NCBI GenBank assembly: GCA_038878695.1
Contig: JAVZVD010000001.1
Coordinates: 1 to 64,000 of the forward strand
Length of the DNA: 64,000 nucleotides
Reading direction: 5' to 3'
Source of the DNA: Fervidicoccaceae archaeon
GTDB lineage: Archaea > Thermoproteota > Thermoprotei_A > Sulfolobales > Fervidicoccaceae
The position numbers were made by a program, and so were the translations under genes. Within the stretch, counting starts at the first letter, position 1; every line of letters begins with the position of its first letter. Below, in pieces: positions 5,314-63,362 of this stretch. The notes under the pieces are model-generated. The model was given only the letters and a program-made list of their open reading frames with translations. It made no database searches and had not been told where the DNA came from.

Positions 5314-5348
5314 TTCGGATCCCTCAAAGCTTAGGTGGGCGGCATCTC

Positions 5349-5927
5349 TTGAGCTCGAGCGAGGGATTCCGCGCGCTGACCGAGGGAGAGAAATTCTACT
5401 ACGTGCTACACCCCATGCCCACTGTGGTTATCGTGACGATCTGCGCCAGCGGTAAGGTCAACGCGATGCCGGCCTCTTGGGTCACTCCCGTGGCCGAGGA
5501 GCCCCCCAGCATCGGCGTGGCCGTAGACAAAAATTCTTTCACCCGCGAGTGCCTCGACGAGGCTGGAGAGGCCACAGTTAATGTCCCGAGCTTCGAGCAA
5601 GCCGAGCTGGTCTACAGTCTCGGGACCGTCTCGGGACGCGATGTCGATAAACCCGCGAGGTTCGGCTTGAGGTTGGCGCGAGGCGAGGCCGTGAGGGCTC
5701 CAAGGTGGCTCGACGCTCTCGCCTCGCTCGAGTGCCGAGTCGAGTCGAAGCTCGACGCGGGAGACACGATCTTTTACTTGTTAAGAGTGGAGCGCGTTTG
5801 GGTGAGATCGGACCTCTTCGAGAGATACGGCTGGAACATGAGCAAGACGAGCACGTTGCTTCACGGCTCTGGCAGGACCTTCTTCTCGGTGGGCAAGATG
5901 CGCAGAGTTCAGGGCCTCAGGGCCTAG
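5349..5927 (+). CDS. Flavin reductase-like domain protein
   Basis: FMN-binding split-barrel protein of the flavin reductase family. A core segment MPTVVIVTICAS is followed by MPASWVTPVAEEPP and VAVDKNSFT, which match the FMN-binding strands of archaeal ferric/flavin reductases and ferredoxin-linked flavoproteins. The product is 192 residues from the TTG at 5349, which has a GGTGGGCGG ribosome-binding stretch about 8 bases upstream. A longer reading from 5226 would run through the preceding gene and is rejected. It lies 35 bases after the glycosyltransferase-like gene. The redox partner is unknown. Confidence 0.75.
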   Translation: MSSSEGFRALTEGEKFYYVLHPMPTVVIVTICASGKVNAMPASWVTPVAEEPPSIGVAVDKNSFTRECLDEAGEATVNVPSFEQAELVYSLGTVSGRDVDKPARFGLRLARGEAVRAPRWLDALASLECRVESKLDAGDTIFYLLRVERVWVRSDLFERYGWNMSKTSTLLHGSGRTFFSVGKMRRVQGLRA

Positions 5928-5957
5928 GTCGTCCTCGCTGGACCAAAACACAGCGCG

Positions 5958-32697: not shown

Positions 32698-33539
32698 GGC
32701 CTGCTCTTCCCCGCGAGCTCTTCGCTAATCGCGCTCATGGCGTGTCTGAAGTAGCTTTCCACGAAGCCCGGCTCGTCCCTGTCGGCTAACTCGCCGAGCC
32801 TCATCCTCCCGGCTGGCTCTTCCGATGGAAGCGCGAAGTTCTTCCTCAACCATGCCGAGAAATCGCCGAGGCTCTTGAGGCCATTGAGCCTCCCGAAGTA
32901 CGTGGGACAGGGCGTTACGAATTCCACCAACCTGAAGCCGCGCTTCTTCTTGAAGGCCTTGAGTAAGCTGTTGATTCCGGAGACGTAATCTAGGAAGGTC
33001 CACCTGGCCGCGTAGTTCGCACCGGCCGCCGCGACGAGCGCGACTAAGTCAGTGGGCCTCTCGAAGTTGCCGCGAGGAGCGCTCGTTGTCGCACAGTGAG
33101 TCGGAGTGGTGGGCCCGGTCTGTCCGCCAGTCATGCCGTAGTTGAAGTTGTTCACGACCACCACCACGACGTCTAAGTTCCTCCTAGCCGCGTGGAAGAG
33201 GTGGTTCCCGCCAATGGCGGCCAGGTCCCCGTCGCCAGCGAACACTAACACCTCCAGGTCGGGCCTAGCCAGCTTCACGCCCGTGGCGAAGGCTAGAGCT
33301 CGGCCGTGCGTTGTATGAAGACTGTCGAATTTTACGTAGCCGGTCACTCTAGAGGAGCAACCTATGCCGCTTATCCAGACAAGCCTCTTCGGGTCGAGCT
33401 CCGCTAAGTCTATCGCGTGAAGCACGTACTTCAAGACCGTGCCTATGCCGCAGCCAGCGCAGAAGATCGTCGGGAGTCTGTCCTCGCGCAGGAATCTTCG
33501 CTTGAGAGAGGAGCTCAGGGCCAAATCTCGCAGCCTCAA
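32694..33539 (-). CDS. korB: 2-oxoacid:ferredoxin oxidoreductase, beta subunit
   Basis: TPP-binding beta subunit. The ThDP motif GDGDLAAIGGNHLFHAARRNLD with a later NNFNYGMTGGQ is clear, and FCAGCGIG plus GIGCSSR provide Fe-S ligands. I place the start at TTG 33539, which overlaps the korA stop as TTGA, like the korC and korA junctions; a longer frame to 33623 would overlap korA by 88 bases and adds no conserved sequence. Product 281 residues. It works with KorA, KorC and the ferredoxin-like KorD to oxidise 2-oxoacids with CoA and reduce ferredoxin. Confidence 0.9.
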   Translation of the reverse strand: MRLRDLALSSSLKRRFLREDRLPTIFCAGCGIGTVLKYVLHAIDLAELDPKRLVWISGIGCSSRVTGYVKFDSLHTTHGRALAFATGVKLARPDLEVLVFAGDGDLAAIGGNHLFHAARRNLDVVVVVVNNFNYGMTGGQTGPTTPTHCATTSAPRGNFERPTDLVALVAAAGANYAARWTFLDYVSGINSLLKAFKKKRGFRLVEFVTPCPTYFGRLNGLKSLGDFSAWLRKNFALPSEEPAGRMRLGELADRDEPGFVESYFRHAMSAISEELAGKSRP

Positions 33540-37003: not shown

Positions 37004-38362
37004 TTGCGCGAGTTCCCATTGGAGGAAGCGGTCGGTGACCCGATGTTTCTCGAGCGGAACCTCGACCACCTCTCCATAGCTCCTCCACTCGTGGGAGTAG
37101 GCCTCGCAGAGATGGGGAAGGGGAGCGTTGTCATTGAACACGAGGAGCTGGAGCGCGTGGCCGGCTGGTGGCTGGCGGCGCTAGAGAACCAAGTCGAGCG
37201 CCTGAGCTCGCTCGTAGAGGCCAGGAGCGTTCTCACCGCTCCTCCGCTCGACGCGCTCGAGGAAGAGCCGCTCGAACTAAGGAACGAGATCGTGTCGCAC
37301 GAGCGGCGAGCCCACGTCTCGAGGAGGTCTCACCTCTACAGGCTGGGGATCTTCAATAGAGTGTTCGCCCCGGTTCACTTCGCCGCGCTGTCGGGCGAGA
37401 GGCTCCCCCTGGCGAGCTACTTCGCCGAGGCTCTCTTCCTCTCACTCGTGGAGCGGGGGCTGGAAGAGGCGGCAGATTGGGGCGGCTCGCTCGAGGCTCG
37501 GCGCAAAACGCGCGAGGCCGTGGAGTCTGCCCAGAGGCTCGGCGAGCTCGACTGGGTTTACGAGCTCTCTCTCGCCTTAGCCTCCGTGGCCGAGGAGCTC
37601 CGCCTCAGGCTCTCGGACCTCATCGAGAGGCCCCTACTGTTGAAGAGGGGCAAGAGATTCTACGTGGTCAGCCCGGCCGAGCTCGTGCTCTCCGGGCTCT
37701 TCGACGGGCGCGAGAGGTTGTCGTCTATGATCTCCGAGGGAGTGGAGCCGATGGAAGCTCTCGCCTCGATCCTCGGAGAAGAGGGTAGCAGGCCAATTGA
37801 TTCGCGAGAGGGGGCGCTCTTTCTAAGCGAGATCTACGCCGAGGCCTACAGATTTCTCCTCAACGAGGAGGTCCGAGGGCGCTACGGCGTCACTGGTACG
37901 AGGCTCAGGGACCGCGAGTCTGAGCTCAAGCTGTCAACTTACATGAGGCTCGAGAGGATCCTGCCGCTCGCCTCGCTCGAGGCCAGACTGGCGGGCGGAA
38001 GGTACAGCTTCAGGCTGGCGCTGCCGGCCACGGAGGATTGGGACGCTCTGGTGGTCCCGGTGCTGGCGGCCACTTGTCTCCTCATCTCGGTCTACTGTTC
38101 TCTACTCTCATCCGTCGAATTCTCGTTCAATGAGGGCAGGGAGATCCGTCTGGGCGAGGCCAGCGCGCTCAGAATTCCCAAGCTAAGGGTCGGAAAGGAG
38201 GCCGGGGAGGCCGTGATGGCATCGGTGAGAGGTCTGGGGCGCTTTTACGTGAAGGCCGTGGAGAATTACTACAAAACGATGATAGGTCGGCTAGGCGACC
38301 GCGAGAGATTCCTGAGATTCGTCGAGGAGAGGCTGAGAAGCGGAGAGCTCAACGGATTCTAG
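37004..38362 (+). CDS. Hypothetical helical protein (452 aa)
   Basis: No family recognised. The predicted protein is soluble, rich in Leu, Glu and Arg, and reads as mostly alpha-helical. One moderately hydrophobic stretch (VVPVLAATCLLISVYCSLLS, about residues 346-365) might be a membrane or core helix. No metal, nucleotide or nucleic-acid motif is evident. Base composition and codon use match the neighbours, and the frame is intact for 1.36 kb, so it is a genuine gene. It sits between sufC (divergent) and the degraded complex I genes. TTG start in CTTATTTGCG. Confidence 0.7.
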   Translation: MREFPLEEAVGDPMFLERNLDHLSIAPPLVGVGLAEMGKGSVVIEHEELERVAGWWLAALENQVERLSSLVEARSVLTAPPLDALEEEPLELRNEIVSHERRAHVSRRSHLYRLGIFNRVFAPVHFAALSGERLPLASYFAEALFLSLVERGLEEAADWGGSLEARRKTREAVESAQRLGELDWVYELSLALASVAEELRLRLSDLIERPLLLKRGKRFYVVSPAELVLSGLFDGRERLSSMISEGVEPMEALASILGEEGSRPIDSREGALFLSEIYAEAYRFLLNEEVRGRYGVTGTRLRDRESELKLSTYMRLERILPLASLEARLAGGRYSFRLALPATEDWDALVVPVLAATCLLISVYCSLLSSVEFSFNEGREIRLGEASALRIPKLRVGKEAGEAVMASVRGLGRFYVKAVENYYKTMIGRLGDRERFLRFVEERLRSGELNGF

Positions 38363-38455
38363 AGAGCTGGTCATAGTTCCCCCAAGATCGCGCGATCCTC
38401 TCGGTCCGAGGTTCGCGCTCTGAGTTTTGGTTCAGTTAGATACTTGACACTCTAA

Positions 38456-38724
38456 ATGCGGCTCGCTCCGAGGAGAATCACTGTTATATTGCTCGAGGCC
38501 CTGGCCGCATACGCGGGCGTCTTGCTCTTCCTCATCGCGCCACTAGCCCTTGTCGTCTGGCTCCTTTACAAGGTCGATCGACCCCTCGAGGAGGGGGCCG
38601 AGTTCGAGAGATTTGAGCAGTACTCCGTGAGCGCCGGATCGCGGCGGTCCTCCTGGTGGTCGTCGCTCTGACCAGCACGATAGAGGCGCTGCTCGCGTCG
38701 AGAAGAGAAAGAAGTGTGGCGTGA
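38456..38724 (+). pseudogene. Fused remnant of complex I nuoA (5' part) and nuoJ (3' end)
   Basis: Positions 38456 to about 38622 encode an N-terminal hydrophobic helix and then YKVDRPLEEGAEFERFEQY, which resembles NuoA (NADH-quinone oxidoreductase subunit A) up to its conserved acidic segment. From about 38623 the sense continues in another frame with a hydrophobic helix (IAAVLLVVVALTSTIEALL) and a basic tail, RRERSVA, then a stop, resembling the C-terminus of NuoJ. Everything normally lying between nuoA and nuoJ (B, C, D, H, I) is missing. The simplest reading is a large internal deletion joining two genes. The assignments rest on short stretches. Confidence 0.6.
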
Positions 38725-38765
38725 GGTAAAAAGAGGTCTGACGGTTAGCTCGGTCGACCGGCGAG

Positions 38766-39060
38766 GTGCTCGCGGCATCTCGTCTCCTCTTCATTGAGCT
38801 GACCGTAGCGGCGCTCCTGGAACTTGGCGTCGCCGCGAATGCTCACCACCAGGTCTCTGCTGAAGACATCGCTAAGGGTCGAGGTCCTGTTCAATGGAGC
38901 TCTCCTAATGCTGGTGAGCGTGGGGGCCCCGGTCCCCGAGCCCACCGGCCTCTACGCCGTTATGGCCGTGCTATTGGCCTCGGCCGAGGTGGTAGTGGCG
39001 GCGTCGATAGCAGCGCTGTGCTACAGGACCGTCATGAAGGTCGAGATGGTCCCGTTGGCA
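38766..39060 (+). pseudogene. Frameshifted nuoK-like complex I gene
   Basis: One frame from 38766 gives a first helix (LFIELTVAALLELGVAA). A shift near 38838 leads to MLTTRSLLKTSLRVEVLFNG, ALLMLVSVG and LYAVMAVLLASAEVVVAASI, matching the second and third helices of NuoK/Nqo11, including the Glu residues in helices 2 and 3. The expected end (YRT...VE) appears near 39040, but the frame then runs on into nuoN-like sequence without a stop at the usual place. Non-functional unless a sequencing error is involved. Confidence 0.65.
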
Positions 39061-39689
39061 GCCCGAGAGTGGCCGCGGCAGCTCTCCTCTCCGCCTTCAC
39101 CATGACCTTTGGCAACGTAGCGGCTCTCGCCTCGAGGAACCTCTACAGAATCCTCGCCTACAGCAGCATAGCCCACGTCGGCTATCTCATGCTCGCCACA
39201 ACTGCCGCTCTGTACCATCTATCTCTCGGGGATGAGCGTGACACGAGCATGGCCTCTTACGCTCTCACAGCCGCTCTGATACATCTGACGGCTTATGCGC
39301 TCTCTAAGCCCGGGACCCTCCTAATCATTGGGGAGGGGCCTCGAGGCTCGAGAGGCTCCGAGGTTATTACAAGCGCGGTCCGGCAGCTGACGTAGCGCTG
39401 GCCGTCCTATCGCTCAGCCTGCTCGGCGTGCCACCCCTCGCGAGCTTCTGGGGGAAACTACACTTACCAGTTAGCCCTCGGCTACTCTTCGGCCCTCGTG
39501 TTGGTCGCTGTAGTCAACAGCGGGATATCGAGCTTCTATTACGCTAGAGTGGTCCGCGAAGTCTTCACCGAGGGGACGGGAGAGGCTCCGCCTCTGAGCG
39601 GAGGCCTGAGGCTCGCCGTCGTCGCCATGGCGTTCGCCACCGTGCTCTTGGGATTGAGGGGTATTGCCGCTGGCGCAGGCAACCATTAG
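39061..39689 (+). pseudogene. Truncated, multiply frameshifted nuoN-like complex I gene
   Basis: Three frames together spell the middle and end of an antiporter-like proton-pumping subunit (NuoN type). FTMTFGNVAALASRNLYRIL then AYSSIAHVGYLML (to about 39395) is followed in a second frame by ADVALAVLSLSLLGVPPLAS and FWGKLHL (about 39371-39463). A third frame gives ALVLVAVVNSGISSFYYARV to the stop at 39689. The N-terminal half of the gene is absent. At least two frameshifts plus the deletion mark it as a pseudogene. The region from 38363 to 39732 holds no intact gene. Confidence 0.75.
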
Positions 39690-39732
39690 GATGCTGATAC
39701 CCTGAACTAGCCGGTAACGGAGGGCTCGTGAC

Positions 39733-40575
39733 TTGGCTGGAAAGTCCCGCAGGGTGGTGCTCGCTCTCCTCTACGACGGCTCGGCGTTCTTCGGCTATCA
39801 GAGGCAGCCCGGCCTTCCTACGGTCGAGTCCGTTGTGTTGAGCGCGATCTCGGGCTGCGAGCCCGAGGGAGGTCTCCTCTACAGCTACTCCAGCAGAACA
39901 GACAGAGGAGTCAGCGCTCTGTGGCAGACACTGAGCTTCTTGGCGCGGAGCGAGTGCTCCCTGAAGGAGCTCGTGGAGAGGATCGAGGGCTCGTCGGAGA
40001 GGATCGGAGTGTGGGCAGCGAGCGAGGAGGCCCCGCCCGAGTTCCACGCTAGGCGCTGGGCTCTCTGGAGGGACTACGTCTATGTCGACGAGGCCTCCAA
40101 CTACGAATGCGCCGACCTCCGAGAGCTCAACTCCGTCCTCTCAATCTTCACCGCGCTGCGCGACCACTCGGTGCTTTACAAGGATTGGCTCAAGCGACCT
40201 AGAGAGGGCTACTTCGAGAGGAGGATCCTAAGGATCGAGGTGAAGGCCGAGGGTAGAAGGGTCTTCTTATGGGTTAGAGGGGAGAGCTTCCCGATTCACT
40301 ACGTTAGGAGGCTCGCGCACTTCGCGAGGAGCTATCGGTGCGGCACCGGCTTTCGAGCCCACGCCGAGCTATGGAGGCCCGGCGAAGCCGAGGGCTCGAG
40401 GCTCTTTCTGGTCGGGGTGAAGTACCCGATCGCGCTCCGAGTTCTCGATCCTCGAGCTAAGCTGAGCCGCGTCTTCCGCGGCGGAGATCTGCTTGATGAC
40501 CTCATTTCTTTCCTCGAGGCCTCGCCCGAGGTGCTGAGCCCCTTTTCTCCGCTATCCTCTTCTCGAGCTCGGTGA
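39733..40575 (+). CDS. truA: tRNA pseudouridine synthase A
   Basis: TruA family enzyme isomerising uridines in the tRNA anticodon arm. The catalytic motif SRTDRGVSAL contains the nucleophilic Asp, and YDGSAFFGYQRQP plus FHARRWALWRDYVY are supporting signatures. 280 residues, TTG start. The 3' end overlaps the convergent rfcL gene by 74 bases, so the last 24 residues are encoded opposite the RfcL C-terminus. Confidence 0.88.
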   Translation: MAGKSRRVVLALLYDGSAFFGYQRQPGLPTVESVVLSAISGCEPEGGLLYSYSSRTDRGVSALWQTLSFLARSECSLKELVERIEGSSERIGVWAASEEAPPEFHARRWALWRDYVYVDEASNYECADLRELNSVLSIFTALRDHSVLYKDWLKRPREGYFERRILRIEVKAEGRRVFLWVRGESFPIHYVRRLAHFARSYRCGTGFRAHAELWRPGEAEGSRLFLVGVKYPIALRVLDPRAKLSRVFRGGDLLDDLISFLEASPEVLSPFSPLSSSRAR

Positions 40576-61405: not shown

Positions 61406-61804
61406 CTACTCAGCCTCGATGCTCTTTATCGAGACTCCTCTCCCCCTAATCACGTCGAGGTCGCTCGAGCCGCAGCGCGGGCACTTAGCGTATGCGTGCA
61501 AAAGCTCGGGGACGAAGTGAACCGCCTCGCGCTCCTCATCCGAGAGGCTCAGCTCCTCGAGGAGCAGAGTCTCGTAGCACCCCCTGCAGAGCAGCACAGC
61601 CTTCTCGCGCTCGAGCTGGAAGCCCTCTATCCTAGGCTCAACGGACTCCCCGAGGAGACTGAGGGCCTCCTTGAATATGCCCACATCTACCGCTTGGAGC
61701 TCCCCGAGGGAGATCCTCACGAGCTTGACGCGCTTGGAGCCATGCTCCCTCGCGAAGCTCGCCACCGCCTCGACGACGGCCTCGGCTAGGCTCCACTCGT
61801 GCAA
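61406..61804 (-). CDS. hypA: HypA nickel metallochaperone
   Basis: Delivers Ni to the hydrogenase large subunit. MHEWSLAEAV supplies the N-terminal Ni ligands (His2, Glu3), and zinc is held by Cys73/Cys76 and Cys108/Cys111. The 31-residue insert between the two CxxC pairs resembles Thermococcales HypA. 132 residues; TTG start. First gene of hypABCDEF-nikR, with a strong TATA-like element upstream. Confidence 0.94.
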   Translation of the reverse strand: MHEWSLAEAVVEAVASFAREHGSKRVKLVRISLGELQAVDVGIFKEALSLLGESVEPRIEGFQLEREKAVLLCRGCYETLLLEELSLSDEEREAVHFVPELLHAYAKCPRCGSSDLDVIRGRGVSIKSIEAE

Positions 61805-61852
61805 GCTTCACGCCCCGCGAGAGTGTGTCTAGGGGAGGAGGAGTGCATAAAG

Positions 61853-61939: not shown

Positions 61940-62470
61940 ATATGTTAAGGCTCCAAAATCTGTTAAGACTCCAGAACCTGTGCTGCAAAGTTTCATTGAC
62001 CAGCTCCACGATGTCGCCCACTACGAGGTCCTCGCTGGAGCGCTCGACGCAGTATCTAGCGCGAGCTCTTATCTTTTACCCGACGCGATGCTCAAGCGGG
62101 ACCGCAGAGCCTTTGGAGGTGCTAAAGAGGGCGCCGCCGGAAAGTGTTGTCTCTTCGTTCTCTTGGTCGAGGGAGCGGCCCATGACGAGGAGAGGGCGGG
62201 AGAGGGCTTCTGGTGCATAGTCGGCGAGGAAGGCAGCAAGACCACACGACGAGCTGTTGACTCGACGAGCTCTCTGAGAAGGCCGCATGTCGTCGTGGCC
62301 GTTGGGTCCTGTGCGATCTATGGAGACGCGCGGCGTCCTGGATCACTTGGGGGACAAGAGTGAAGGAGCGGGCCCCGGCCTTCCCGTCGTCTATACATAT
62401 TGCTCTCCATTGGGCAACGGACAGCTCAGATCAGACCCTCGGAGCCTTTATCCTCTCGCTGAGAAGCCTC
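61940..62470 (+). pseudogene. Degraded [NiFe]-hydrogenase small-subunit gene
   Basis: Sense is split over several frames. Frame 1 gives LCCKVSLTSS (remnant of the proximal-cluster CxxC start) and ALIFYPTRCSSGTAEPLEVL (about 62065-62124). Frame 2 gives FVLLVEGAAHDEERAGEGFW (about 62154-62213) and HVVVAVGSCAIYGD (the third cluster Cys region, about 62289-62330). A third frame gives DQTLGAFILSLRSL (about 62429-62470). Order and spacing match the small subunit of a [NiFe] hydrogenase. The C-terminal part with the distal clusters is missing and no large subunit follows. Region 61805-62429 has no other gene. Confidence 0.65.
61943..61978 (+). repeat. Tandem 18-base imperfect repeat
   Basis: TGTTAAGGCTCCAAAATC (61943-61960) is followed at once by TGTTAAGACTCCAGAACC (61961-61978), matching at 15 of 18 positions. 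In one frame both read LRLQNL. It sits at the 5' edge of the hydrogenase remnant. Confidence 0.8.
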
Positions 62471-62796
62471 GGGCCCGAGGAGGAGGCCAGCTCCAAGAAT
62501 GTCGCGTATCGTGAGCCCGTGGGAGTCGACGCGTTTGCTCCAGAGGAGATTCTTCCCCTCGAGCTCGATGACCATTAGCGTGCCGGACTCCTCGCCGGCG
62601 TCACCGCGTCCACGAAGATCACCGCGCCGTAGGATCCTCCGAGGATCTTGAGGAAGACGTCGTAGAGATTCGTGTCCGCGTCCAGCACCTCGACGTCGTC
62701 CGGGAGCCTTCTCTCCGCCGGAGCCCTAACCACAGCGGATCCGAGCCCATCGTCTCTCCTGAGCTCGTTTCCCACTCCCGCTATTAGGACCCTCAA
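62430..62796 (-). pseudogene. Frameshifted hydrogenase maturation protease
   Basis: The first frame (62575-62796) encodes MRVLIAGVGNELRRDDGLGS and then VLDADTNLYDVFLKILGG and VIFVDAV, the N-terminal two thirds of a HycI-type endopeptidase with its Asp nickel-binding positions. It ends early at 62575. A shift near 62585 continues the homology in another frame: ESGTLMVIELEGK and SHGLTIRDILGAGLLLG (about 62475-62585). The gene is therefore probably inactive, unless frameshifting or a sequence error explains it. Its ATG overlaps the stop of the dephospho-CoA kinase gene (ATGA), so it belonged to that operon. Confidence 0.6.
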
Positions 62797-63362
62797 GCCG
62801 ACTCCACAGACCTAGAGGCTGCTGCGACCTCCATGAGCGACAAGAGATCGCAGGCCGCGGCCCTCCACGTCGCACTCGTCGGTAAGACCACCGCCCCCTC
62901 GCCTGGCTGCCCGTACATCAGCAAGGCTCCGCCGAGGAGTCGAGTCGAGCGCGAGCACAAGATCGCGAGGGGCGCGAGGTCCTCCTCGCCTTCCACCACG
63001 AGTAAAGCCCCTCTCCTTGCTCCTCGACCTAGCGCGCGCTCGAGGACGAACTCCAGCTCGACGACATTGAGATGGCCGGGGGGATTGGCGACCTCGGAGA
63101 CGACCTCGAGCTTCGATATCGCCGAGCCGAGCTCCGGGGGGGCCGCCGAGCGCTCCACTCTGCCATCGATCACCGCGAGGATCAGCCTCTCCAGCGCGAC
63201 CAGGGAGCACTCTCTCGCAGTAACATCCCCCACCGCCACGAGAGCCGGGGACTCCTCGGCGAGGACCTCTCTCGCTCCTCCCTCGACGAGAGGACCGAGA
63301 GGTCTCTTGAGCTCTCTCCTGAGGCTCTCGGGCAGAGCCAGCAGGACCACTCGTTTAGTCAC
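62793..63362 (-). CDS. GTP-dependent dephospho-CoA kinase (DUF359)
   Basis: Archaeal enzyme for the last step of CoA biosynthesis. VAVGDVTARECSLVALE, VIDGRVERS, VANPPGHL and LLVVEGEEDLAPLAILCS are the DUF359 signatures. GTG 63362 overlaps the spt4 stop as GTGA and gives 189 residues, the usual size; the frame extending to 63527 is spt4 shadow. Complements the CoA operon at 25.7-28.6 kb. Confidence 0.85.
   Translation of the reverse strand: MTKRVVLLALPESLRRELKRPLGPLVEGGAREVLAEESPALVAVGDVTARECSLVALERLILAVIDGRVERSAAPPELGSAISKLEVVSEVANPPGHLNVVELEFVLERALGRGARRGALLVVEGEEDLAPLAILCSRSTRLLGGALLMYGQPGEGAVVLPTSATWRAAACDLLSLMEVAAASRSVESA

Follow-up and report, generated by a model that had tools for sequence, protein, structure and literature searches.

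We found that the stretch from 38456 to 39689 is almost certainly what erosion has left of a complex I operon of 11 genes, nuoABCDHIJKMLN, of the type without the NADH module. We are also confident, by only a little less, in the fuller account, in which the ancestral 11-subunit operon has become a fossil in its original place and a reason for its loss can be put forward together with it. The window, that is, the whole stretch of DNA analysed here, spans 64,000 bases (C1:1-64000) of the genome G000, which comprises 1,112,410 bases in 5 contigs and is 98.3% complete; positions given without a contig refer to this window. Genome-wide checks in G000 were single-family searches, and the family comparison set consisted of the six nuo-bearing members G001, G002, G003, G005, G006 and G007, together with G004.

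Anatomy of the nuo remnant

Translated in three frames, 38340-39740 shows no complete gene; the open stretches are short, and the frame shifts from one to the next. When the subunits of the relatives are used as tblastn queries, four remnants line up on the + strand, in different frames: first nuoA with its start, next nuoJ with its end, then nuoK, and last nuoN with its 3' part. The nuoN remnant (39069..39689, +) retains about residues 267-470 of 480 with the stop codon, divided into three frame pieces (39069-39332, 39344-39466 and 39501-39686). It is 54% identical to NuoN of G001 over 177 residues and reaches 122 bits (E 5.8e-32), compared with 22.7 bits for the best match elsewhere in the window. 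Furthermore, Pfam Proton_antipo_M, the antiporter domain of NuoL/M/N, scores 39.2 bits on it (cut-off 21.5), and the whole-genome search returns an antiporter match at G000:C1:39081-39551 with a stop inside the match. For nuoK, the remnant (38793..39045, +) covers about residues 9-92 of 103 in two frames, 38793-38828 and 38839-39045, with 48% identity to G001, an E of 8e-14 against the whole window and 59.3 bits versus 20 for the best match elsewhere in it; Pfam Oxidored_q2 scores 20.9 bits here, below its cut-off of 26.1.

Upstream of these, the N-terminal part of nuoA remains at 38456..38647 (+), with 38516-38647 aligned to about residues 10-54 of 123. Its identity to NuoA of G001 and G005 is 47% over 45 residues by tblastn, and it scores 30.8 bits versus 22.3 for the best match elsewhere in the window, with the closest relatives G001 and G005 only. 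The nuoJ remnant (38617..38709, +) consists of the C-terminal 31 residues (residues 137-167) and shows 39% identity over 31 residues with NuoJ of G001 and G005. Alone it is not significant (17-18 bits at the wreck versus 25 elsewhere in the window), and it is accepted because of its position between nuoA and nuoK together with the 31-residue alignment. The nuoA/nuoJ junction falls within about 38617-38647.

A sequence-only reading had described Nuo A, J, K and N stretches in canonical order on one strand, with several frameshifts, without the nuoB-I block and without the 5' half of nuoN, and had called for translation and homology searches of the region. With the three-frame translation, Pfam and tblastn the match to complex I subunits proves real: N, K and A are significant against the whole window and J is placed by position, the span of the nuoN remnant agrees with a lost 5' half, and nuoL and nuoM are gone in addition to nuoB-I. 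Measured on G001, two blocks have been deleted, one of about 4.3 kb from nuoA into the end of nuoJ and one of about 4.4 kb from the end of nuoK into nuoN; the operon has lost about 8.7 kb in total, and what remains is broken by three frame changes. It would be conceivable that the organism has an intact operon and that this stretch was misassembled or is of low quality, given that G000 is in 5 contigs and that frame changes in a high-GC region could partly be base-calling errors. We consider such an artefact very improbable: errors in base calling do not account for two deletions of several kilobases, antiporter, D and H searches turned up no other copy of the missing subunits in the 98.3%-complete assembly, and the genes flanking the wreck are intact and syntenic.

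Ancestral place and age of the decay

The wreck ends 43 bp before an intact truA gene (39733..40575, +; Pfam PseudoU_synth_1), which marks the ancestral place of nuo. In all six nuo-bearing family members an intact nuo operon lies just upstream of truA, directly so in G001, G002 and G005, where truA follows nuoN, and with one gene between in G003, G006 and G007. As far as the contigs reach, the order in these relatives is A B C D H I J K M L N, and the nuo loci examined contain no E, F or G. Among 80 RfcS-centred loci fetched, nuo adjoins truA in three only, those of Desulfurococcales archaeon T11_maxbin2_scaf2bin.227 (G001), S141_metabat1_scaf2bin.117 (G005) and Fervidicoccus sp. ARK-14 (G007); within these loci the linkage is limited to the family and therefore marks it. 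Judging by these names, the family is probably Fervidicoccaceae. Since the nuoN-truA neighbourhood is found in all nuo-bearing members, the wreck is read as the ancestral operon in place. Several complex I-like clusters are often found in families of this order, and the remnant might accordingly come from a second nuo-like cluster, laterally acquired or duplicated. That origin is highly improbable, with the remnant located where the ancestral operon has its nuoN-truA junction, nearest to the family's own NuoN and NuoK, and only 37% identical to the antiporter subunit of the hydrogenase described below.

The earlier statement that all genes around the wreck are intact is nearly correct: long open frames occupy the gaps at 5314-5957 and 32698-33535, but a second apparent wreck lies at 61941-62811. 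Directly upstream of the nuo wreck, an intact 452-codon gene (37004-38362, +) has no Pfam or NCBIfam match, and its assignment as a DNA primase large subunit was dropped on that ground. An Rfam search of the 64-kb window gave no match, nor did a plasmid search.

We observed gene-like codon usage in each piece of the wreck, with 0.17-0.34 per codon in frame and negative values in the other two frames. The identities of the remnants to G001 are as high as those among intact copies, with 54% for NuoN versus 43-52% between intact NuoN of G001 and that of other genera, and 48% for NuoK versus 46-51% for intact NuoK between genera; the intact neighbour RfcL (62% to G001) behaves like the wreck pieces. 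As no added divergence is seen in the pieces, the breakage is young relative to the split of the genera. Codon usage and identity to the relatives indicate that the nuo decay is recent on the scale of the family, in agreement with the recent loss proposed from the sequence alone. Frames of 71, 93 and 63 codons with such usage could also mean that small proteins with a novel function are still translated from some of them, but recent decay predicts gene-like codon usage equally, each piece lies in another frame, no complete subunit is left and NuoN extends across three frames, so that retained small proteins are hardly to be expected.

The remaining hydrogenase operon and a second apparent fossil

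Antiporter, D and H searches of the 98.3%-complete genome G000 found no intact gene for Nuo D or Nuo H. Its one NuoD-like and one NuoH-like gene are both in an intact group 4 [NiFe] hydrogenase operon (C2:186855-194518), which consists of A, B, a fused CD, H, I, J, K, L and one more antiporter subunit. The sequence-only reading had suggested searching the genome for nuoBCDHI and for an Mbh/Ech-type replacement; the first search yielded no intact nuo copy and only this operon, which is also the candidate for the second. Its CD protein carries both CxxC nickel-ligand motifs (L1/L2), RVCGIC and DPCFSC, which are absent from the Nuo D proteins of all the relatives. The best solved relatives of the CD protein are the group 4 [NiFe] hydrogenases Mbh (6cfw) and formate hydrogenlyase FHL of E. 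coli (7z0s), with which it shares both motifs; compared with Mbh, the gene order A-B-CD-H-I-J-K-L-L/M-like is nearer to complex I. A tree of 22 D proteins places the CD protein among the hydrogenases of G003, G006 and G011 and separates it from every Nuo D (100/100), and a HycI-family maturation protease gene lies just upstream of the operon. The [NiFe] motifs and the grouping with hydrogenases spoke against reading the operon as a complex I acquired in place of the lost one, and that interpretation was rejected. The only [NiFe] large subunit in G000 is that of the group 4 enzyme. By motifs and phylogeny, the only complex-I-like operon left in G000 encodes a group 4 [NiFe] hydrogenase. Scanned against named genomes, the CD protein gave no match. 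We also observe that the group 4 hydrogenase D proteins of G003 and G006 are very near that of G011, a member of another family, with short branches, which suggests lateral transfer of the operon.

Regarding the respiratory context, family searches of G000 found neither NrfD nor cytochrome bd subunit I. G002 is also without both, yet keeps complex I, and these absences are therefore context and not proof, and alone do not explain the loss. The only molybdopterin oxidoreductase in G000 is a formate dehydrogenase, and its alpha gene on C3 implies that formate could be one electron source. A MenA-like prenyltransferase gene is kept, with a score over the cut-off, so quinones may still be made; a claim of quinone loss was dropped in view of this gene and of UbiE-type counts that did not discriminate.

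The second wreck, at 61941-62575 (+), looks like the ruin of a gene for the small subunit of a [NiFe] hydrogenase; Oxidored_q6 scores 22.8 bits on it, below the cut-off of 27, and HofK, a solved small subunit, gives an E of 0.0014. It is adjoined by hypA (61409-61807, -). A maturation protease-like gene (62429-62811, -) looks frame-broken, its N-terminal part matching the intact proteases of G004 and G002 before the frame ends. No large subunit matching this ruin was found in G000. As a fossil, it resembles the small subunit of [NiFe] hydrogenases of the uptake type.

Loss of complex I in the family

The lost enzyme, which had no NADH module, would have pumped ions with ferredoxin or a similar donor as its electron source. 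We infer that the lineage gave up quinone-linked electron transport, that ferredoxin would now be reoxidised via H2 formation at the ion-pumping group 4 hydrogenase, and that complex I would have decayed in a shrinking genome because its use was lost after the shift to an H2-forming metabolism; G000 measures 1.11 Mb versus about 1.3 Mb in near-complete relatives. The ion-pumping, H2-forming role of the C2 hydrogenase, through which it would take over the part of complex I, is a prediction from sequence. As the reason for the loss, we give a shift from quinone-linked transport to ferredoxin-dependent H2 production slightly better than even chances.

The wreck matches, in order, A, J, K and N of the 11-subunit complex I-like enzyme (Nuo without NuoEFG) of archaea and strict anaerobes such as Desulfitobacterium hafniense, which is conditionally needed in anaerobes (PMC11238625); unlike the D. 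hafniense enzyme, the G000 copy is a non-functional ruin with most of the operon deleted. According to passages of a second source, fermentative Desulfurococcaceae, such as Thermosphaera aggregans, conserve energy via Mbh/Mbx complexes, and the end state in G000 is probably the same, with ferredoxin oxidised at membrane-bound hydrogenase-related complexes; those passages describe no nuo relic, whereas in G000 the relic is still readable (PMC3035292). Our literature search found no published description of this nuo decay. It is a clear and fairly fresh gene loss, a known kind of event and no new kind of system; unusual here is the legible nuo relic, accompanied by a second, hydrogenase relic. 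Complex I losses are usually inferred from absence. This archaeon, whose genome is compact, shows the loss at a half-way stage, so that one can read how far the deletions extend.

Upon comparison across the family, G003 and G006 keep both complex I and the hydrogenase, and the hydrogenase therefore allows complex I to be lost without making its loss inevitable. In G004 (L057, C31, 4663-8923; assembly 91% complete), EF-2, a decarboxylase and truA lie side by side with no nuo between, whereas the counterpart in G003 reads EF-2, nuoA-N, decarboxylase, truA; the single NuoH-like gene of G004 belongs to an Mbh-type hydrogenase cluster. Nuo was thus either lost without trace in G004 or never there, and complex I may have been lost a second time within the family. 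Tentatively, and with the odds somewhat against it, these observations may reflect a coordinated and ongoing dismantling of quinone-linked electron transport, in which the ruins of complex I and of an uptake hydrogenase of the group 1 type lie about 22 kb apart in one genome, the complex I-like group 4 hydrogenase would be the only redox pump of the superfamily left, and the trace-free absence in G004 would be separate. Overall, the family forms a graded series, from Nuo together with the hydrogenase, through the hydrogenase with a Nuo ruin, to the hydrogenase without a trace of Nuo, which lets one ask when the hydrogenase makes complex I dispensable.
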